Shown here in pieces: positions 17,753 through 30,542 of a stretch of 35,671 nucleotides of DNA (position 1 is the stretch's first letter; every line of letters begins with the position of its first letter). The notes beneath the pieces were generated by a model that saw nothing but the letters and a program-made list of their open reading frames with translations, was not told the DNA's origin and searched no databases. A program made the translations under genes and the position numbers. This DNA comes from Methanobacteriota archaeon (GTDB taxonomy: Archaea; Thermoplasmatota; Poseidoniia; Poseidoniales; Thalassarchaeaceae): positions 1 through 35,671 of the forward strand of contig PBSO01000031.1 of the NCBI GenBank assembly GCA_002726275.1. The letters run 5' to 3'.

Positions 17753-18862
17753 TTGGGCAGAACGAGTCAGTTTCAAGACGTGTTGTCCACACGCAGGTAC
17801 CTCAGACACGGCCCCTCTGCGGGATTCGGAGTCGGGGGTGAGTGCTTGCAGAGTCCCGTGACGAAGATTGACCCGGTTATCGCCGCACGCCTTTCCAAGC
17901 AGAAATATCAGCTGGTAGGAGAGCATGGCGGAGTGAAGACTTGCCACTGGACAAAGCAGAGCCTGATCGCTGACAGGTCCTGCTACAAGGGGACTTTCTA
18001 CGGTATCGAGAGCCATGGTTGCATGCAAATGGCTCCTAATGTGGATACTTGCAACCTGGGATGCACATACTGCTGGAGGGAGCCTCACTCGGACACCCTG
18101 AACAAGATCGACGATGACCCTTACGAGTTGTACCTGGAATCAGTGAGGGGGCACCGGAGACTGCTCACGGGATTCGGTGGGAACCCCAAAGCGGACCCTG
18201 AGAAGTTCGCAGAGGCGCAGAACCCGAAGCACGTCGCGATATCCCTGAATGGGGAACCCACTCTGTATTCCAGGCTCGGGGAGTTCCTGGACATCTGCCA
18301 CCAGCATGGCACCTCCACGTTCCTAGTCACCAACGGCAGCCTGCCCAAGGTGATCGAGAACCTCGACACCCTCCCAACCCAGCTCTACGTCTCCGTGGAT
18401 GCGCCGAACAAGGAGCTATTCGATAGGCTATGCAAGCCCAAGTTCGACCAAGGTGCCTTCCACAAGCTCGAGCAGACCCTGGAGCTTCTGCCGAGCCTCG
18501 ATACGAGGACAGTGTGTAGGCACACCCTGATCAAGCACGAGTCACTGGGCCATCACAAGGACTACGCCCGCTTGGACAACATCGCCAATCCGGACTTCAT
18601 CGAGGCGAAGGGGTATGTGAACGTCGGGAATAGCCGGAACAACCTCTCTATAGAGAACATGCCGACGCACCAGGAGATACTCGATTTCTCCAATACCCTC
18701 GCCCCCCTAGTCGGGAGGGAGGTTCTTTCTGACAGGAGGGAGAGCCGAGGGGCGCTGATTGGCAGGGAGATGATCCCGGTAACCCTCCCTCAGAAGGTTA
18801 GGGACCTGCCGAAAGATCTCGGCATAGCCAAGCCACAGAGATTCCTGCTCCCTCAAGCCTGA
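17753..18862 (+). CDS. taw1: 4-demethylwyosine synthase (TYW1/Taw1), radical SAM
   Basis: KQKYQLVGEHGGVKTCHWTKQSLIADRSCYKGTFYGIESHGCMQMAPNVDTCNLGCTYCWREP (radical SAM CxxxCxxC). The true start may be GTG at about 17858 (VTKIDPVIAARLSKQ...). Confidence 0.92.
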   Translation: MGRTSQFQDVLSTRRYLRHGPSAGFGVGGECLQSPVTKIDPVIAARLSKQKYQLVGEHGGVKTCHWTKQSLIADRSCYKGTFYGIESHGCMQMAPNVDTCNLGCTYCWREPHSDTLNKIDDDPYELYLESVRGHRRLLTGFGGNPKADPEKFAEAQNPKHVAISLNGEPTLYSRLGEFLDICHQHGTSTFLVTNGSLPKVIENLDTLPTQLYVSVDAPNKELFDRLCKPKFDQGAFHKLEQTLELLPSLDTRTVCRHTLIKHESLGHHKDYARLDNIANPDFIEAKGYVNVGNSRNNLSIENMPTHQEILDFSNTLAPLVGREVLSDRRESRGALIGREMIPVTLPQKVRDLPKDLGIAKPQRFLLPQA

Positions 18863-19851
18863 ACCATGGGCCTGCTGGAGCCACATTCGGGACATAGCTG
18901 CTCCACACTGTCACCATACTCATACTTGCAAGCTGGGCAAGTAGCCGCGAGTTTCATCTCAGACTTGCCATCGATGTCTATCCTCTCTTCTGATACCCTC
19001 TCAAGGTTTATCGAATCGCGCACGATATCAGGAATCTCAAATCTACCAGGGCCACCAATTTGCGTTAGTATGTCTGGGGGCAGGGTCACCGTTCCTGTTT
19101 CGTCAATGATTAGCTCACGGCTGCCCGATAGGTCTCCGATATCAACATCTGTTCCGTGTTGAGCGACGAAGCGTCCGTCTCTGAGCTCAAGTGACCGCTC
19201 ACAGAAGGCGGCGACCTCCCTGTTGTGAGTAACTAGGAAGAATGCTACATCCTCTTGCTTGTGAAGCGTTTTGAACAGATCTAGGACCTCTCTGCTGGTA
19301 ATCGGGTCCAGTGCTCCTGTCGGCTCATCGGCCAGAATAAGTTTGGGCTTTGTAATTAGTGCTCGAGCTATCGCAACCCTTTGCTGCTCGCCCCCAGATA
19401 GTTCCTCGGGCATTCCGCGAGCCCTGTCTCCCATACCAAGACGGTCCAGTAATATCTGTGCCTTGGCCCTGGCTTCTCCGGGTAGGACACCCTGATGTCG
19501 TAGCGGCTGGGCAACATTGTCCAATGCGTTGAGATGGGGTAGCAGATTAGAGTCTTGGAAGATGAAAGATACTGTGTTCTGACGGTGTTCGACCAATTCA
19601 TGGCCAGTCATTCGAGTCAGGCCCTTTCCAGCCAACGAGACCTTTCCTGCAGATGGTTTCATCAATCCTCCAAGGCTCTTTAGAAGTGTTGACTTTCCTG
19701 ATCCAGATGGTCCGATTACTGCGACTGCTTCGCCGTCGTAGACTGTGACATGAATCCCCCTCAGTGCCACCACGTTTCCATCCTCAGCATTGGATTCGTA
19801 TACGTGATATAGGCTCTCAGCCTTCAGAATCTCGTTATCGTGTGTACCCAT
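18853..19851 (-). CDS. ABC transporter ATP-binding protein (LolD/MacB-type) with C-terminal zinc ribbon
   Basis: Walker A GPSGSGKST, signature LSGGEQQRVAIARAL, Walker B LILADEPTGALD; C-terminal CPACKYEYGDSVEQLCPECGSS. Confidence 0.93.
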   Translation of the reverse strand: MGTHDNEILKAESLYHVYESNAEDGNVVALRGIHVTVYDGEAVAVIGPSGSGKSTLLKSLGGLMKPSAGKVSLAGKGLTRMTGHELVEHRQNTVSFIFQDSNLLPHLNALDNVAQPLRHQGVLPGEARAKAQILLDRLGMGDRARGMPEELSGGEQQRVAIARALITKPKLILADEPTGALDPITSREVLDLFKTLHKQEDVAFFLVTHNREVAAFCERSLELRDGRFVAQHGTDVDIGDLSGSRELIIDETGTVTLPPDILTQIGGPGRFEIPDIVRDSINLERVSEERIDIDGKSEMKLAATCPACKYEYGDSVEQLCPECGSSRPMVQA

Positions 19852-19852
19852 T

Positions 19853-22800
19853 TCACTCCCCCTTCAGTACCACAGCCAAATCCGCTTGCAGTGCTCTCCT
19901 CGTTGTGTATAAGAGAGCCAATACAACGGCAATCAAGACAGAGAGATTAACTAATCCCAAATCAAACCATGGCCAGACTAAATCTCTGCTAATCGTAGTC
20001 GATTGGCCCCCGAAAATCTGGAAGATGAATCCGAAAACCGCGAAGAATCCGTTGAAAGAGTAGGCAACAGCCAATCCGAGGGCGACACCCATGGCCATGC
20101 TTGCCATGATTATTGATAAGATCTCAAACAGAACCAATCTAATCACCTGATTTGAGCTTGCTCCGATTGCTTGCAGAATCGCCAACTCGCGCTTGCGTTG
20201 GGTGAGCACTAGAGAGAGGAAAACAAATGCCGAGGCTACAGAAGCCAGAGATGCGACCACGAATTGCAGACTTAATAGCCCCGGGGTGCCGAAAATCAAA
20301 CCTCCATTTCTCTCTACTTCCCTGTGAGTTGAAGACCAGTCTGTGACTGAAGAGGTTTCAGCGTCGGCAGTTAACTCTGCATTGAGTGTTCTGAGAGCAT
20401 CTCCACAGTTGTCATCGGTCTGATCGCATAATTCGAAGAACCATCTGCTGGAAGAGAAGGAATCTGCTACAGAATCACCAACCATTTGGCGGTATGTCTT
20501 CTCTCCAACCACCAAAGATTGCTCAGTCTCTGTTGTACTTAGGCCGGGAATCCACTCATGTTTCCCCATGTATGTTAGGTTGGCCTCAGTCACAGTAACG
20601 GTGATAATTGGTACAAAATCGGGGCTTAACCCCTCGAATTCATATGCCTTGTACTCGAAAGTGAAATAGGCCTCATCAGAATCAACGTCGAGGATTTCGA
20701 CTGCTGCTTCTCCTGCTGTGAATCCATTCCCTGACCATTGACTGACGACCATATCAATGTCATCACCGGGAACTGACTGCTTGTCCCAGTGCAAGGTATC
20801 CTCGTGACCATCAAAAACAATCCAGGTAGTAAGGACGGCTCCTTCTCCCTTTGGATTGGTGAATATACTGGATACCGCGGTAGCGGACTTGACTTGCTTC
20901 ACCTCAGGATCGTCGGCACGAATAATCGCCTCAGTGACTATGGCAATCGCTTCCTGCTCGGTCACTGGTTGGGTGAATTGGACTTGGATATCCGCGCCGG
21001 ACTGGGCTGAGGCTGTCCTCTCATCAACTACCGTACCGGTATATCCCTGAACTGCAGCTAGTGTCACAATTGACAGGGTGAGGAGCATGATGACTGCCAA
21101 GCGACTAACTGACTCGCTGGAACCGGATCCGCGGAGTCCCCGCTTGATGTCTGAAATTGCCGGTGACCATGAAAGCAGTGCTGAGAAGATCTTTGGCCCT
21201 GCAGCTCCGATTCTGCCAAGAACAAGAGCACCGCCAATCCACAAGCAGAAAGGTCCGAAGAGTTTGACAACTCCATCAATGAAAAACCCGGTGAGTATCC
21301 CTTCTGAACCAGGGTTTGTGGATTCAATCCAACTATCGGCGAATGCCAATAATCCGACGATGAATATAATCGTGTGTAGCCAATATTTCGGTTTGCTCTT
21401 GGCAGAGACCTTTCTGACACCTTCATCAATCTCGATATTGAGGAATTCCTTGGTTCTGCCATAGCCTAACAGATAGGCCAGTCCAACCGTCAAAAGTACT
21501 GTGAATATGGTGGAGAGTAGACTGAGGACGGGATTAACATCGATTTCAGTGGCCCTGAATTCTAGGAATCCGACAGCATCCAAAACGAGAGGAACTGCGA
21601 GCATCGCAATTAGATATCCTGAGAGCCAGGCGACAATGCTGAATACGGTTACTTCCGACATGACCATGCTCGTAAGCCCGCGTTCGGTTCCACCAATTAC
21701 GCGGTGAATGGAAATCTCCCTCTTCCTCTGTTCGAGGGATAGTATAAGTCCGTAAATCAGGACTGAGAATGAGAGTATGACAATTGGAATCATCAGGATG
21801 TAATCAAACAACTGAATCAATGCTAGGAAGAATTCCAAGAATCCTATCGTGGAGGAAATAAGATCATTGTATTCCACTTCAATCTGAGCATCTGTGTATG
21901 TAGCAGATTCAATCTCTTTCTTGATTTCACCTAGCCAGTTCTGGGCATCATTGGTTGAACTAGTGGGAACTAGATTACGATCTACTGCAAGCCCCAAGTA
22001 GCCATGATCGTTTTCCATTAGGATTAGTTTTTGTTCATCACTGAGGACTGAATCTGTGATGACTAGCGGATTGAATAGAAGAGTTGGATTTCCTGCTCCT
22101 GCCTCGGAAAGTATTCCTGCCACTCTGAGGTTCTCTACAGTCATGTTTACTCTACAGAACATGTATCCGCTTTGCTCGATTCTTGCTGTACCTGTGCAGT
22201 CATCAAATCCATCATTGATATTCTCAAACGAGAGATAATCAGTGACGTAGGTGAACGTGAGTGAGTCAATCGTATCGTTTACGGAGACGCCTGCCTGAGA
22301 TGCGATTCTGAGTGGAAGCAAGATAGAACGGTTTGAGGAAGCGTCATCGGGAAGAGGCCAAGTGCCATACAAAACCTGCTTGGCGTGTCTTTCTCCTAAC
22401 TCTCCGTCCCAAATCCCGTCTCCGTAGAAACGAACGATCCTTTGATCATTTATCGGAGGTCCGAAATCACCGGCTTCGGGATAATCCCAACTTACATTGG
22501 CCCAATCACCTGTCGACCCGGTGGCTGAGATTACATTCAGTGGCTGAGGGACCACAAAACCGTCATCTCCGAATCCCCCACTCCATCTGACTCCTTGACG
22601 CCCATACACAATCCCGCAGTCTGAGAATTCTTCCATTACTACGAAATCATCACACATTGACTCCCAAAGAACTGAATCATTGGTTCTGCCATCTGCATCT
22701 GAGCCGGGTTCATCAGCAAAGTCCACCTTAGCATCGAAGGTATCGTTCTCAAGAGAATACTGCAGGAATGCCTGAGAAAGCCCCACAGAGTAGGCTAGAA

Positions 22801-22927
22801 CAGTGGTAATGACAAGTGAAGCTAGGAACACTCCAGCGAATATCGCCAGTCCTCTCTCCCTTCCCCTCCAAGCGCTCTTGACCGCCATCTGGAAGTTGTC
22901 AGGCATGGAGAGTAAGCGTTCCTTCAT
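19853..22927 (-). CDS. FtsX/MacB-type ABC transporter permease
   Basis: Over 1000 aa; N-terminal TM then large exported domain; two FtsX-like TM blocks (LSLEQRKREISIHRVIGGTERGL and LTQRKRELAILQAIGASSNQVIRLVLFEIL). ATG at 22927 overlaps the upstream stop as ATGA. Confidence 0.9.
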   Translation of the reverse strand: MKERLLSMPDNFQMAVKSAWRGRERGLAIFAGVFLASLVITTVLAYSVGLSQAFLQYSLENDTFDAKVDFADEPGSDADGRTNDSVLWESMCDDFVVMEEFSDCGIVYGRQGVRWSGGFGDDGFVVPQPLNVISATGSTGDWANVSWDYPEAGDFGPPINDQRIVRFYGDGIWDGELGERHAKQVLYGTWPLPDDASSNRSILLPLRIASQAGVSVNDTIDSLTFTYVTDYLSFENINDGFDDCTGTARIEQSGYMFCRVNMTVENLRVAGILSEAGAGNPTLLFNPLVITDSVLSDEQKLILMENDHGYLGLAVDRNLVPTSSTNDAQNWLGEIKKEIESATYTDAQIEVEYNDLISSTIGFLEFFLALIQLFDYILMIPIVILSFSVLIYGLILSLEQRKREISIHRVIGGTERGLTSMVMSEVTVFSIVAWLSGYLIAMLAVPLVLDAVGFLEFRATEIDVNPVLSLLSTIFTVLLTVGLAYLLGYGRTKEFLNIEIDEGVRKVSAKSKPKYWLHTIIFIVGLLAFADSWIESTNPGSEGILTGFFIDGVVKLFGPFCLWIGGALVLGRIGAAGPKIFSALLSWSPAISDIKRGLRGSGSSESVSRLAVIMLLTLSIVTLAAVQGYTGTVVDERTASAQSGADIQVQFTQPVTEQEAIAIVTEAIIRADDPEVKQVKSATAVSSIFTNPKGEGAVLTTWIVFDGHEDTLHWDKQSVPGDDIDMVVSQWSGNGFTAGEAAVEILDVDSDEAYFTFEYKAYEFEGLSPDFVPIITVTVTEANLTYMGKHEWIPGLSTTETEQSLVVGEKTYRQMVGDSVADSFSSSRWFFELCDQTDDNCGDALRTLNAELTADAETSSVTDWSSTHREVERNGGLIFGTPGLLSLQFVVASLASVASAFVFLSLVLTQRKRELAILQAIGASSNQVIRLVLFEILSIIMASMAMGVALGLAVAYSFNGFFAVFGFIFQIFGGQSTTISRDLVWPWFDLGLVNLSVLIAVVLALLYTTRRALQADLAVVLKGE

Positions 22928-23634
22928 TCTCCGGCCTCCGTGTCTACGCCCCAAGCCGAACGGATGTCGGATGCTGCAGTGACTCCATCTCGTAGTAGCA
23001 GCATCCTGTCAGCCATTGAGGCTAGTGTTGGATCGTGAGTGACCATCAGGACGGACATGCCGTCATCCTCGCACAGTTGCTTGAATAGGTGGATTATATC
23101 GTGACCACTCTTCACATCGAGATTTCCTGTCGGCTCGTCAGCTAACAGCAGTGGTCGTGAGCCAGCGATTGCTCTGGCGATGGCAACCCTCTGCTGTTGA
23201 CCTCCAGATAATTGGTCGGGGATGAAATCTAAGCGATCTGACAAGCCGACTTTGTCCAAGGCTTCTCTGGCCTGTTCTTCTGCCTCGGCCGATGGTACTC
23301 CAGCCAACTCCAATGAGAAAGTCACATTGTCTAGGGCGCTTAGTCTGTCTATCAGGTGGAAGTCCTGGAAGATCCATCCGACCCCCCTCCTCCTGACGTC
23401 GACCACCCTGCTGGGGGACTTTGTCCCGTAGTTGAACTCCGAGAGAGAGATCGTGCCCGAGTCTGCCTCCAAGAGTCCCCCGATGATGTTGAGCAGCGTT
23501 GACTTTCCACACCCAGACGGCCCCATTAGAGCAACTAGCTCACCAGACTTGATCTCGAGGTCTATTCCCTTCAGTACCTCAAGCCTTCGCCGGCCAGACC
23601 CGAAGCCTTTCTTGAGGTCCTCTACAGTGAGCAC
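22924..23634 (-). CDS. ABC transporter ATP-binding protein (LolD/MacB-type)
   Basis: Walker A GPSGCGKST, signature LSGGQQQRVAIARAI, Walker B LLLADEPTGNLD; GTG start. Confidence 0.94.
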   Translation of the reverse strand: MLTVEDLKKGFGSGRRRLEVLKGIDLEIKSGELVALMGPSGCGKSTLLNIIGGLLEADSGTISLSEFNYGTKSPSRVVDVRRRGVGWIFQDFHLIDRLSALDNVTFSLELAGVPSAEAEEQAREALDKVGLSDRLDFIPDQLSGGQQQRVAIARAIAGSRPLLLADEPTGNLDVKSGHDIIHLFKQLCEDDGMSVLMVTHDPTLASMADRMLLLRDGVTAASDIRSAWGVDTEAGE

Positions 23635-24814: not shown

Positions 24815-26056
24815 ATGACGGGCAATCGCGGGGGACAGGGCGGTCCCCGGACAAGGCTACTGGTTGCCAAGGGTAGTTTCGTCGCCATGGGCGGAGCTGA
24901 GAGGGACCTTCTACGGAATCTACCCTCCATTGCAGAGTTGTTCGATGTAAGTGTGGCCACTCTTGCTAGCGTCAAGGAGTTGGACTCACTATGCGAAGAT
25001 CTTGGATTGGATCTGATGTGTCCCGATAGTTCTTGGTCGGCCCCCCAGGGAGCTCTCTCTTCAGTGTTGGATAGTGGCATGGATAGTGCATCACGAGCGT
25101 GGTCATCGATGGACAATCTGATTGAGGCTATTGGGGACTTTGATTGCATTCACCTAACTAGTGGCGATGGAAGCCTGGCCCTTCTAGATCACGTTCCAGA
25201 TGACGTAGCCGTGCATCTGCATCTTCTCGAGCCTCACAGGGGACTGCATGAAGACGTCCTTCACAGAGGGATTGACGGGAGGCCAAGGAGGAGTCTGGGT
25301 TTGACTAGGGCTATGCTATCCAGAGCCAGGCGTCGTGACATCTCCGCCGTCAGAGGCCTTTCGGGGAGAAAGAAATCCTCCATCAGTGGGAACTCCTCGT
25401 ACACCGCTGGGAGGATATCCGAAGTTTATGGCATCCCATCTGGGGTGCTGATGCCCAGTGTTGTTCCAGATGAGTTTCCAAGGGAGGCTGACGAAGGGGA
25501 GCCTAGGGGCGTTATGGAAATGGAGGGGGAATACGTAGTTACCGTGGGAAGGGCCAGTTGGGCCAAAGGTACATGGGAAGCGATTTCCATGCTCTCTGGA
25601 AGCGGTGTCTCTCTTGCCCAAGTCGGAGGGGGTTCCGACGATGACTTGCAGAAGCTGCGAGAACACGCAATGTCTGAGGGTGTGGGTGTATGGTTCGCAC
25701 CTAGGCTTTCCTCGCCAGAGATGTCCTCCCTCTACCGCGGAGCCCTTGCAGTGGTTAGCATGGCTCATGGAGAGCCGTTTGGCCTGACTCCGATAGAGGC
25801 ACAATCAGTTGGCACGCCAGCCCTTTTCGTTGACGAGGGGGGGTTCAGGGAGACTGTCTCTGACGGGGTCTCGGGGAGGCTTCTCCCGAGAGGCTCATTC
25901 GAACAGTGGCACCAAGCACTGGAGGATGCAAGAGAGGAAGGCAATCGGTCATTGTGGGCAACGAATGGGAGATCCTCGATTTCAGAGGCGCGCCTCGGGC
26001 CACAGGGGCACTCGGAGAGGCTGGCGGAGATTGTTGATGGGATCATTGGCGACTAA
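24815..26056 (+). CDS. glycosyltransferase, GT4-like
   Basis: GGAERDLLRNLPSIAELFDV ... YVVTVGRASWAKGTWEAISML ... SSLYRGALAVVSMAHGEPFGLTPIEAQSVGTPALFVDEGGFRETV. Confidence 0.87.
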   Translation: MTGNRGGQGGPRTRLLVAKGSFVAMGGAERDLLRNLPSIAELFDVSVATLASVKELDSLCEDLGLDLMCPDSSWSAPQGALSSVLDSGMDSASRAWSSMDNLIEAIGDFDCIHLTSGDGSLALLDHVPDDVAVHLHLLEPHRGLHEDVLHRGIDGRPRRSLGLTRAMLSRARRRDISAVRGLSGRKKSSISGNSSYTAGRISEVYGIPSGVLMPSVVPDEFPREADEGEPRGVMEMEGEYVVTVGRASWAKGTWEAISMLSGSGVSLAQVGGGSDDDLQKLREHAMSEGVGVWFAPRLSSPEMSSLYRGALAVVSMAHGEPFGLTPIEAQSVGTPALFVDEGGFRETVSDGVSGRLLPRGSFEQWHQALEDAREEGNRSLWATNGRSSISEARLGPQGHSERLAEIVDGIIGD

Positions 26057-26649
26057 TCCAGCGAAATTCTCTCGGCTCGTGGACCTAACTTGAACACTAC
26101 AAGCGATGCTGCCAGACCAATTACCAAAAGTGCTGCCGAGGCCCAAATGGGCAATACCACAGCGCTATCGGACGGGAACCAAATGGGCAGGACGTCGAAC
26201 AAAGACTCGCCCCTCACCAATTTCCCACCGATGGATGATGCCATTGTGGTCATGAGGAAGGCCATCACAGCAGTTACCGACTGCAAGAGTGATAGATTCC
26301 TGACCTCCCAGATTCCTGGGCCCATCCTGATCCTGCCCACAACGAAAGCGGCCCAGAAGCCTAGTGCTAGCCCGCTGTAGACGAACTTGTTGTACAGAAG
26401 CGCGTTTCCAACAACGCTGTCAGCAGCTAAGTTTCCACTCAAGATGGCGATTGGCATGAAGAATAGGGCCATGCTGGCACCTGCAATGGATGCCTTGTCC
26501 ATTGTTATCATCAGTGACTCCCTCCTATCTTCAGAGACCGGAATATAGCGTATCGATGCGCAGCCAACGGCACAAACGGTGGCTAACACCATGGTACCAA
26601 CTACTATCTCTGCCATGGCCACATGGAACGTTTCTGCTCCAAACATCAT
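26053..26649 (-). CDS. hypothetical multi-pass membrane protein (third gene of the anchor-V-like operon)
   Basis: 198 aa with several TM segments; start overlaps the upstream stop by ATGA-type overlap (26646..26649). Confidence 0.75.
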   Translation of the reverse strand: MMFGAETFHVAMAEIVVGTMVLATVCAVGCASIRYIPVSEDRRESLMITMDKASIAGASMALFFMPIAILSGNLAADSVVGNALLYNKFVYSGLALGFWAAFVVGRIRMGPGIWEVRNLSLLQSVTAVMAFLMTTMASSIGGKLVRGESLFDVLPIWFPSDSAVVLPIWASAALLVIGLAASLVVFKLGPRAERISLD

Positions 26650-27800
26650 GACTCGCCCCCTTGGAAATTAGGATCCGCTACCCACTCTTCCTCGACTGGG
26701 TCCCAGAGCCACCCCGGGTTCTCCTCGGAATGAACTAGCCTAGCCATGTATTCCTCGGAGGCGGTTTCGGGCTCTTCCTCCATGCCAGGTGGCGGAGGAG
26801 GAGCCTCTCCCTCTGAGTCTATGACTTCCTGGGTTTGGTCCAACTCATCCTTCCCATCCCAGGGGGACAGTCTCACTTGTAGGGACACTATGAATGAAAG
26901 GACCAGGAACGCGAAGGCGAAGGATTGGACTCTCGCATCCCAGATATCGCCCTCGAATGGGGCTGGTCCGGTGCCCATCGTCAGCCACGGGAGATCCATG
27001 GAGAATGAGCCGTTGAGGACTGTGATCTGGTATTGTATCCTAGTATCCCCCATGGTTGAAGGAAGCTGTGCCTCCCAAGTGTTGCAGACCTCCATGTCTT
27101 GGCATTGTGAGCTTACCTCCGCGTCATGGGGGGACCACTCCCCTTCGAGCATCCACTGTACGGAAACTGAAGTTGTGTTGACGGTCCCGATTTCCAGTGG
27201 GTCGTCATTCCCACTGGTCCTGTAAGCAGGTGCGGTCCAATCTGATGACAGGCCTGGCAGACCCTCTGGAACGGGCATTACGTCAATCGAATACCCACGT
27301 GAAACCCCTGTGTATGCAATGCCCTCGTAATTGGGTTCAGAGCCGTGATGCGTCTGTGCGAACAAGTTGTGGACCCCGGTTTCTTGGGGGGCGAGGAGTA
27401 CCCATGTCAGAGTTACCGAGCCAGTGGAGGGGACTACTGTCTCAACGTAGTTTGAGGAGCCTCCGTTTGGGTCCTGTATTACGTGCCAACCATGGTCCTC
27501 AGGATGGTCCGAGTTTCCGTCAATCGACCCTAGGATGAATGTTCCAAGTAGCCTGTTACTCGAGAGTGACATCCCAGCGACGTTGACGTGGACCGCCACA
27601 GCATGCCCGGCAAACACATCTCCGTCTTGGGAAATTGATATCGTGCCATCAGAAGGGAGGCTCATAGAAGGATCACCATGACAAGATCCACCGCATGTGT
27701 AGTCCCTGTCTGAGTCCCCGTTGCCTCCGGGATTGGCCATGCTGGAGCTGGAAACCATGAGAAGGGCAACTACCGAAGCCAAAACTAGTGCTCTGGACAT
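26646..27800 (-). CDS. exported, C-terminally membrane-anchored protein with CxxxCH motif (choice-of-anchor V-like)
   Basis: Signal peptide MSRALVLASVVALLMVSSSSMA; DYTCGGSCHGDPSM; beta-rich region; TM VQSFAFAFLVLSFIVSLQV; acidic/proline-rich tail. Confidence 0.78.
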   Translation of the reverse strand: MSRALVLASVVALLMVSSSSMANPGGNGDSDRDYTCGGSCHGDPSMSLPSDGTISISQDGDVFAGHAVAVHVNVAGMSLSSNRLLGTFILGSIDGNSDHPEDHGWHVIQDPNGGSSNYVETVVPSTGSVTLTWVLLAPQETGVHNLFAQTHHGSEPNYEGIAYTGVSRGYSIDVMPVPEGLPGLSSDWTAPAYRTSGNDDPLEIGTVNTTSVSVQWMLEGEWSPHDAEVSSQCQDMEVCNTWEAQLPSTMGDTRIQYQITVLNGSFSMDLPWLTMGTGPAPFEGDIWDARVQSFAFAFLVLSFIVSLQVRLSPWDGKDELDQTQEVIDSEGEAPPPPPGMEEEPETASEEYMARLVHSEENPGWLWDPVEEEWVADPNFQGGES

Positions 27801-27802
27801 TC

Positions 27803-30448
27803 TCAGAACCCCCTCCTCTTTCTTTCAACCATGGATATCCCAATGGCTGCCGCGCCCAATACGAACAAGATTGCAGATATGGCGATTGAAGCGACAGGAG
27901 TTGAGTCCTGAGACTCAGATACGGATTCCCCCGCCATACTTGCATCGACGCTGACGTGATTCAGTCCATCCATCACCCATACTACCTCATTGCCATCGAC
28001 AACAGTTGTCACGACGTAATAGAGGGTGGCGGAGACAGGTGCCTCCTCGCTCCACGTATTCAGGGATGTTGTTCCTTCTGGGCTCATCTGAATGGGAGTT
28101 AGTTCCCCCCAACCAGGCATCTCGTCCATGGAGGTCAGGCCAACGACAGTGGATATGGGGCTGGTTGATCTGTAAACCCTGAACTCCTCGGATGAGCCGC
28201 TCGACCACGATAGCGTGACGGTGCTTCCAGAGAGCGTGGCTTCTAGGGAGTCAACAGTGATGACGTCCCCATACATTATCTGATTCGATATGGTGTTGGA
28301 CATGCCCATATCATCAATTACAGTCAACGACACAGAGTGGGTGCCCGACGGAAGTAGTACATCGACCGACTTACCAGTTAGCCCAACACCGTTGATTAGC
28401 CAAATGTATGACGAGATTGTGCCATCAGGGTCGCTTGAAGAGGATGCATCGAATGTTGCCATCGCACCCGGTGTGGGCGGGGATGTTTCAGATTCCCAAG
28501 ACGCGATTGGCGGGACGTTTGCAATGAGTGTCTCTGTGAAGGAAGTGGATTCCATCCCCCATGGGTCACTCGCGGTGACCTCGACACCCCAAGTTGCCCC
28601 AGGCTCGAGTCGCGATTGGTCGACAACAGACTGTCCATCTAGGTCAGGGACGTGGAAGCCGTTCCTGAACCACATGTACGTGTAGGATACTGGTTCGCCG
28701 TCCGGATCGTAGGATATGGCTACCGCAATTATGTCCGACAATGAGTCGGGCTGTGCGGAAAGAGCGCCTATGGGCACGTTCTCAAGGGACACCTCCGGGG
28801 AGGAGGGGGCTGCGTTGTCTATTGACCTGGATGTGGTTTTCATTGACGAACCTAGGGACTCACCGTCCCCTGGCAATACCTGTACGGACCAATGTTGGTC
28901 ACGGATGGTTAGTGAGGCTGGAATGGCAGTCATGTCATCATAGTCTCGGACCCATTCCCCATCTACCCACCACCTGATCTGACTACCAGACTCCTGGTCG
29001 CCATCGATGTCTGTCTGCTCCCAGACAACTGACAGTTCTGTGGACGTGGTGAGGGGGCCTTCTGGAAGCATGGTTATCGATGTGACAACGGGTGGAGTGT
29101 TTCCAATCAATACCGAGCCGGTCTCGAACCACTCGGACCATACCAGTCCGTCGAAGACCCTGACTTTCGAGTACCATGTCTCACCTTTGGATGTGAACGA
29201 TGGGTCGACTGTCTGCTCGTCATTGAATGCGGAGACCCTGACTCCGTCCCTGTACCACCTGATTTCTACATCCTGGATAATGTCCCCGTCCGAGTCGAAC
29301 GACGAGTATGATAGTTGGAGGGCATCGGATGTCACGGCGTTTCCGGGAGGATTGACGTAGCCGTTTACGGTTGGCTGGTTGTTCGATGAACCAATGATAA
29401 TCTTCCCACTAGTTATTGTGTCACCGAAATCGGTTCCATCGTGAGGGGTGATTGCGACCTCCCACTCATCATCGGACCTAATCATGATGCTGGAGACCGA
29501 TTGCTCTCCATCCAACTCAGTTACCCTTGAGCCGTCTAGGAACCAATGAATGGTGGTCTGCTGGGAATCCTGTGGGTTGCCATCCAAGTCGTAATACTCC
29601 CAGTCCAGAGTGAGGTCGTCTGTGTCCAGGGGGGCGTTTGGAGAGACTGCGAGGTTCCTAGCAATAGGAATCGTGTTTCCTATGGTTACTGGATTCAATG
29701 AGACCGTGTCGCCCTGGTCATCCCCATCACTAGGTGTCACCTCGACCCTCCAGCTCTGGCCCCTAGCTATCCAGCTATTGGGGACGTCTGTCTGATCGTC
29801 AATCTGTGAGACTCGGAGACCGTCTCGATACCACCTGATGGTGGTGCCCTGCTCTGAGTCGCCATCCGCATCGTCGTACGTGTATGAGACGCCGAGGCCT
29901 GTAGCCTTGGTTGGATTACTGGGAATGTAGTAGACATTGGAAGCGGTCGGGGGGTTGTTGGTGGGTCCGGCCTCAGAAAGAGTCCACGTTCCGGTTCCCC
30001 AACTGTCTCCAGAATTCATACTATTTCCATTGGCATATAGGACTGCTAAGTCGAAATCGACGTCGCCTGTTCCCGAAGTGGGTGCGGTCCAGTCTGCGGA
30101 CCACGAGCGCGAGGCATCGCTGCTGTGAGTCAGCTCACCGCTCGCGAGCTGGACATCGGTACCGAGGCTTGACCAACTGCCAGCGCTCGCGGCCAGGTTG
30201 AATCCGCCATCTCCGGAGATGTGGGGGCCGCCATCCCATACCAGTGAGTATGTGGAGCCCGGAGTATAACCCCCCGCCCCCCATGGCAAGCCGCTCAGGG
30301 AGGGAGAGATCGGGGAGGTGTTCGAATGGCAAGTACAACCGGCGGTTGATTGGCCGGTTTTCCCGCCCGAATTAGCGAAAACCACTGGAGAAGTCGAGGA
30401 AAGGAGGAAAATGAGGACCAAGCCCACTGCGAAGCCTCGTCTCGTCAT
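27803..30448 (-). CDS. large surface protein: CxCH-containing choice-of-anchor V-like N-terminus, tandem Ig-like repeats, PKD-like and FN3-like domains, C-terminal TM anchor
   Basis: Signal peptide MTRRGFAVGLVLIFLLSSTSPVVFA; SGGKTGQSTAGCTCHSNT; repeated DxDGD...IRWYRDGxRV...W.V.V.P.DG units; ASWESETSPPTPGAMATFDASSSSDPDGTISSYIW (PKD-like); C-terminal ASIAISAILFVLGAAAIGISMVERKRRGF. Confidence 0.85.
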   Translation of the reverse strand: MTRRGFAVGLVLIFLLSSTSPVVFANSGGKTGQSTAGCTCHSNTSPISPSLSGLPWGAGGYTPGSTYSLVWDGGPHISGDGGFNLAASAGSWSSLGTDVQLASGELTHSSDASRSWSADWTAPTSGTGDVDFDLAVLYANGNSMNSGDSWGTGTWTLSEAGPTNNPPTASNVYYIPSNPTKATGLGVSYTYDDADGDSEQGTTIRWYRDGLRVSQIDDQTDVPNSWIARGQSWRVEVTPSDGDDQGDTVSLNPVTIGNTIPIARNLAVSPNAPLDTDDLTLDWEYYDLDGNPQDSQQTTIHWFLDGSRVTELDGEQSVSSIMIRSDDEWEVAITPHDGTDFGDTITSGKIIIGSSNNQPTVNGYVNPPGNAVTSDALQLSYSSFDSDGDIIQDVEIRWYRDGVRVSAFNDEQTVDPSFTSKGETWYSKVRVFDGLVWSEWFETGSVLIGNTPPVVTSITMLPEGPLTTSTELSVVWEQTDIDGDQESGSQIRWWVDGEWVRDYDDMTAIPASLTIRDQHWSVQVLPGDGESLGSSMKTTSRSIDNAAPSSPEVSLENVPIGALSAQPDSLSDIIAVAISYDPDGEPVSYTYMWFRNGFHVPDLDGQSVVDQSRLEPGATWGVEVTASDPWGMESTSFTETLIANVPPIASWESETSPPTPGAMATFDASSSSDPDGTISSYIWLINGVGLTGKSVDVLLPSGTHSVSLTVIDDMGMSNTISNQIMYGDVITVDSLEATLSGSTVTLSWSSGSSEEFRVYRSTSPISTVVGLTSMDEMPGWGELTPIQMSPEGTTSLNTWSEEAPVSATLYYVVTTVVDGNEVVWVMDGLNHVSVDASMAGESVSESQDSTPVASIAISAILFVLGAAAIGISMVERKRRGF
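28520..29960 (-). repeat. about five degenerate tandem Ig-like protein repeats of roughly 90-100 aa within the large surface protein
   Basis: Recurring pattern (D)(A/L/S)DGD...IRW(Y/F/W)xDG(x)RV...W(x)V(x)(V/I)(x)P(x)DG...IGN; boundaries approximate. Confidence 0.75.
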
Positions 30449-30542
30449 AACTCGCGATAAGGGAGGTGGCTGAATATGTTGCTGATGGCAACGACTTCTG
30501 TTCTTCCGCTGCATTCATGGATTGAACACTGGTGGGAGGTGC

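Follow-up and report, generated by a model that had tools for sequence, protein, structure and literature searches.

Among the closest described systems to the operon analysed here are the monoheme c-type cytochromes, including cytochrome c1, and, at the level of the fold, the Reeler domain of F-spondin. The operon consists of three genes, P1, P2 and P3, all located on the minus strand of a window of 35,671 nucleotides (contig PBSO01000031.1 of assembly GCA_002726275.1) from an archaeon of the Thalassarchaeaceae, a family of Marine Group II (Ca. Poseidoniales). Marine Group II archaea are among the most abundant archaea of the surface ocean. We consider it somewhat probable that the operon is an outward-facing electron-transfer module, in which P1 and P2 serve as monoheme c-type cytochromes of a non-canonical kind, built on a Reeler scaffold, with P3 as their membrane partner.

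Like monoheme c-type cytochromes and cytochrome c1, P1 and P2 have a signal peptide, a C..CH segment with its histidine, and a conserved further histidine that is a candidate ligand; the genomes contain cytochrome c maturation (Ccm) genes, and a paralog of P1 takes up a position in an operon for a cytochrome bc complex. In contrast to these proteins, P1 and P2 carry CxCH and CxxxCH instead of CxxCH, are built on a beta-sandwich and not on the alpha-helical cytochrome c fold, and do not match PF00034 or PF13442. Non-canonical heme c motifs, as proposed for P1 and P2, are known from the CX15CH and CXXCK cytochromes with their dedicated heme lyases (PMC3601427, PMC10663686). Such cytochromes are uncommon exceptions that occur alongside canonical motifs. 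In the genome that holds the window, it is the non-canonical motifs that seem to be the norm. A survey of archaeal cytochromes c from 2015 searched by the CxxCH pattern (PMC4429474) and would therefore have missed CxCH and CxxxCH proteins, and a genome survey from 2019 found that Marine Group II has cytochrome b and Rieske genes without a canonical complex III (PMC6336850). The family to which the N-terminal domains relate is choice-of-anchor V (NF041895). P1 and the paralog in the bc operon share this domain above the curated cut-off, while P2 homologs match it more weakly; the spacing between the cysteines is one (P1), three (P2) or four residues, and the gene partners are DUF2231-like or belong to bc and oxidase loci. 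The literature searched contains no described function for this family and no report of a CxCH heme motif.

P1 (27803..30448) is predicted to be an exported surface protein. Its longest open reading frame (ORF) runs over 27803-30514, with the likely start at Met23 (30448), ahead of the signal peptide. The signal peptide is followed by the choice-of-anchor V domain with the sequence GCTCH, five repeats in tandem, each about 95 residues long (186-666; 28517..29959), a PKD domain (666-744; 28283..28519; PF18911, 4.5e-7) and a C-terminal transmembrane (TM) helix (877-895 of 903 residues; 27830..27886), which was located by hydropathy. The repeats are recognised by periodic conserved N..P and W positions, and the homolog alignment places their conserved boundaries at N186, N280, N378, N472, N567 and N666. 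The preliminary description of this DNA had recognised a choice-of-anchor V-like segment behind the signal peptide, and the profile match bears this out, with 83.3 bits (E 1.7e-23) against a curated cut-off of 42. The domain is also alike to the Reeler domain of F-spondin (PDB 2ZOT, 2ZOU, 3COO), both in a profile search (2ZOU, E 8e-4) and in a Foldseek comparison, where the best six matches are all F-spondin Reeler domains with a TM-score of about 0.6 (3COO, E 4.6e-6). By profile and by model, the N-terminal domain of P1 is thus a predicted choice-of-anchor V/Reeler-fold domain. A tblastn search of the P1 domain against plasmids gave no match.

The likeness to F-spondin has its limits. The aligned stretch starts after the Cys motif of P1, and the distal position is not a histidine in F-spondin. 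We know of no heme in the F-spondin Reeler entries 2ZOT, 2ZOU and 3COO. In P1, the residues C60, C62 and H63 of the motif (C60-T-C62-H63; 30326..30337) and the distal histidine H130 (in LTHS; 30125..30127), which is a candidate sixth heme ligand, are invariant in 37/37 homologs. The spacing is CxCH in 36 of these 37 and CxxxxCH in the remaining one. Alternatively, the operon might encode a surface adhesin or sensor, with a Reeler-type beta-sandwich, a structural pair of cysteines and an anchored stalk of repeats. The five repeats and the PKD domain would fit an adhesin or spacer at the surface, and the F-spondin match also speaks for this explanation, but the invariance of H63 and H130 would be left without a reason, a disulfide within C-x-C would be strained, and the paralogs at bc and oxidase loci (see below) would be unexplained. 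We regard this alternative as improbable.

P2 (26646..27800) is likewise exported, and consists of a signal peptide, a domain with the sequence CGGSCH, a second beta-sandwich, a single TM helix (286-311; 26868..26945; AlphaFold2 (AF2) helix and hydropathy) and a tail some 70 residues long. The motif (C36-GGS-C40-H41; 27678..27695) reads CGGSCH in 45, CGGACH in 15 and CAGSCH in 3 of 63 homologs, i.e., it is CxxxCH in all of them, with C36, C40 and H41 invariant throughout, along with one distal histidine, H152 (in HHG; 27345..27347). All four residues are also invariant (57/57) in a cleaner alignment of 57 sequences, with identity down to 25-30%. The two unusual motifs are thus as initially described, and non-conservation of their Cys and His residues, which had been named as grounds for discarding the idea, was not found. 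As these residues are invariant across the homologs of both P1 and P2, the motifs are not due to chance. The choice-of-anchor V-like start that was proposed for P2 is only partly retained. P2 of the window itself has no significant match to NF041895; 25/57 homologs do match it (best 8.5e-8), and the P1 and P2 profiles align across the whole domain in hhalign (E 1.9e-4, probability 48%). These profiles suggest that the N-terminal domain of P2 belongs, in diverged form, to the same domain family as that of P1. Similarly, both proteins had been called C-terminally anchored, which applies to P1, while P2 is a single-pass protein in which the tail follows the helix. The AF2 model of P2 (mean predicted local distance difference test score 81.5) retrieves only generic tandem Ig-like matches from the PDB, which says nothing on a cofactor.

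The conserved residues also fit a second explanation, which is the main rival. Exactly two Cys and two His residues are invariant in both P1 and P2, which is enough for a tetrahedral site, and they could hold a non-heme metal (zinc, copper, mononuclear iron or 2Fe-2S) as a redox or structural centre in a Reeler-like domain. Such a site would tolerate variable spacing more readily than known heme lyases do. On the other hand, an invariable pair of neighbouring C and H is characteristic of heme c, and one related protein (L361) has the canonical CxxCH. Another has CxxxxCH. Within the domain family, the spacing thus drifts (x1, x2, x4 in related proteins) while the first C, the CH pair and the distal H stay fixed.

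The genomic context of the paralogs connects the CxCH domain to respiration. The genome that holds the window contains four choice-of-anchor V matches, three with CxCH and one with CxxxxCH. The gene of one CxCH paralog, which scores well above the NF041895 curated cut-off (G000:C25:53624-54430; L196:16625-17434, L287), occupies the first position in an operon whose further genes encode a DUF7318 protein, a Rieske protein and cytochrome b. Cytochrome b is identified by PF00033 (8e-42); the Rieske protein matches TIGR01416 below its cut-off (1.9e-9), with both Rieske boxes readable. The paralog gene was found in 78/78 genomes of the order, its motif is CxCH with an LTH distal histidine in 41/41 parsed sequences, and the Rieske gene adjoins it in 49/50 loci. 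We propose this paralog as a candidate for the cytochrome c1 that is apparently missing from Marine Group II. Elsewhere in the Thermoplasmatota, CxCH domains adjoin CoxB, CoxA, and DUF420 with a redoxin. A second CxCH paralog (L150:9601-10719) adjoins a TatC-like gene and apparent NAD(P) transhydrogenase subunit genes, the latter read from the sequence. The position of a CxCH paralog beside a Rieske gene would suit any redox metal, and hence the metal-site explanation as well. A Rieske-type cluster in P1 and P2 themselves was set aside, as they have one C-x(n)-CH box and a lone histidine versus the two Cys/His boxes of the Rieske protein in the bc operon. This operon also holds a protein of 929 amino acids (L197:1126-3915) with an N-terminal membrane part followed by 4Fe-4S and CCG (heterodisulfide-reductase-like) domains.

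A further line of evidence is the presence of Ccm genes in genomes that are nearly devoid of canonical cytochromes c. The search for such genes, which had been suggested as a check, was positive, since among 60 genomes PF01578 (CcmF/CcmC) was found in all 60 and CcmE in 46. The sequence CPSKY was present in 8/8 CcmE sequences read, and is a form of the archaeal CcmE heme-binding motif CXXXY (PMC9084895). The Ccm loci of these genomes contain a CcmF/NrfE-family gene, a CcmAB-like fusion, CcmC and CcmE (L204:14050-16389, L176:6581-8814, L118-L125). The host genome has matches to the CcmF/NrfE family, CcmC and CcmA, with scores that do not reach the curated bacterial cut-offs, as would be expected of distant members; CcmE was not found in this incomplete genome. 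In the same 60 genomes, cytochrome c PF13442 was not detected, and PF00034 was detected in one, with a single match (G093:C53:3742-4029, L206). In addition, nearly all of the host assembly, which is 87% complete, was read in stretches (1096 ORFs). This survey, to which the missing 13% was not visible, is the sole basis for absence in this genome, and within it no exported CxxCH cytochrome was found. Among exported proteins, the motif C-x(1-4)-C-H occurred in the choice-of-anchor V proteins, P2 and one Rieske protein, and the CxxCH matches were a thioredoxin-CcdA-like fusion, an RND-type transporter and a small zinc-ribbon protein. Likewise, a complete Poseidoniaceae genome, read over 0.38 Mb, gave four exported motif matches, namely three CxCH proteins and one CxxxCH protein of the same kind. 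The simplest account is that the CxCH and CxxxCH domains are the clients of the Ccm system. If P1 and P2 held a non-heme metal instead, the Ccm genes would be left without an evident client in the host genome, and we regard the metal site as rather unlikely.

On the cytochrome interpretation, P1 and P2 would be exported as apo-cytochromes with a beta-sandwich scaffold of the Reeler (choice-of-anchor V) type, and the archaeal Ccm system (CcmAB, CcmC, CcmE with CPSKY, and CcmF) would attach one heme to each, at C-x(1)-C-H in P1 and at C-x(3)-C-H in P2. The histidine of the CH pair would serve as proximal ligand, with the distal histidine (H130 in P1, H152 in P2) as the sixth ligand. P3, whose conserved residues are predicted to face outward, may be a membrane docking or electron-exchange partner, and P1 on its long repeat stalk may move electrons outward to the surface layer or inward from it. 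We infer heme attachment, the ligands, the interaction of P1, P2 and P3 and the direction of electron flow from the combined evidence. The redox function that was suggested at the outset is thus supported indirectly, by the conserved motifs and distal histidines, by CxCH domains at bc and oxidase genes, and by the retention of Ccm in the near absence of canonical cytochromes c.

Several elements weigh against heme in P1 and P2. First of all, System I recognises little beyond CXXCH, and altered Cys spacing leads to faulty attachment (PMC3601427), while the CXXCK and CX15CH motifs each require dedicated synthases (PMC3601427, PMC10663686). From these limits it is predicted that CcmF is adapted to the motifs described here. 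Secondly, no heme protein is among the best fold matches of the P1 domain, for which F-spondin Reeler domains are the only close matches. Thirdly, the AF2 model of P2 has low confidence around the CxxxCH segment, and the distal histidine of P2 sits on a different strand than that of P1. Lastly, the trio is absent from genera g2 and g10 and from most of g7. Because it is absent from several genera, it is accessory and not part of core respiration.

Where the trio is present, its organization is strongly conserved. Relatives were searched in 118 genomes. In about 90 of these, P2 was matched along the greater part of its sequence, the remaining matches being only through its C-terminal hairpin, and P3 was found in 92. 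The trio is syntenic in both families of the order, Thalassarchaeaceae and Poseidoniaceae, in roughly 90 of the 118 genomes. In essentially all of about 70 loci examined (some from one genome), P1, P2 and P3 directly follow one another with unchanged order, often with overlaps of 4 nucleotides. ORF calls in the window confirm the reported coordinates and spacing, with a gap of 2 nucleotides between P1 and P2 and an overlap of 4 nucleotides between P2 and P3. As anatomy, the paired module plus membrane partner of the preliminary description is therefore correct, and the arrangement is conserved.

P3 (26053..26649) is a membrane protein with five TM helices predicted from hydropathy. DUF2231 (PF09990) is matched by 9/58 homologs (best 2.3e-5), while P3 of the window has no Pfam match to it; by these matches the family is distantly DUF2231-like. 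The residues H9, G72, N87, K88, S139 and G141 are invariant or nearly invariant in the homolog alignment, and H9 (26623..26625), which directly precedes the first TM helix, is invariant in 58 sequences. The positive-inside rule predicts that the N-terminus of P3 is outside, so that these residues would lie mostly at the outer face. An apparent natural fusion of P2 and P3 in one relative (L076) was rejected, since the ORF spans a run of N in the scaffold. P2 and P3 might also act as assembly factors in thiol or heme handling for CxCH cytochromes, and not as electron carriers. All loci read that hold P2 also hold P1 with its CxCH motif, and in about 16 genomes of the family to which the window belongs, CcmF is situated approximately 13-17 kb away from the trio. 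This linkage was not seen in the second family (G072), however, and genomes without P2 and P3 still have the bc-operon CxCH gene and Ccm, which makes a role in assembly highly improbable.

A broader proposal, plausible in our opinion but held a little short of probable, is that Marine Group II and its relatives run extracytoplasmic electron transfer, including the bc complex, on Reeler-fold c-type cytochromes with contracted (CxCH) or expanded (CxxxCH, CxxxxCH) motifs and an adapted Ccm system, with the operon as a surface-anchored branch. Should the CxCH proteins hold heme, they would provide a candidate for the missing cytochrome c1, and the view that System I depends on CxxCH spacing would call for revision. 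Should they hold a different metal, an abundant lineage would have a redox site not yet described in one of its universal respiratory subunits.

Some further observations concern related proteins and the surroundings of the operon. A very large surface protein (L176:17909 onward; G000:C8:36471) has a CxxxxCH choice-of-anchor V domain and, by eye, RCC1-like repeats; similar large proteins in relatives carry CGGCH or CGGGSCH. The tail of P2 ends in a Trp-rich hairpin in the AF2 model (PGWLWDPVEEEWVAD; 26673..26726), which resembles parts of other large proteins of the order and recurs in many that measure about 1400 amino acids (e.g., G000:C17:14239-14616). A contig labelled as Flammeovirgaceae bacterium (NZVP01000003.1) carries a Poseidoniales P2 gene, and is probably mislabelled or mis-binned. 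The longest ORF of P1 begins at 30514, and 7 nucleotides separate it from a divergently oriented gene at 30522 for a 3-hydroxyacyl-CoA dehydrogenase/enoyl-CoA hydratase. Genes for ABC transporter ATPases and an FtsX-type permease of 1033 amino acids are situated near the trio, at 18853-23634 of the window.

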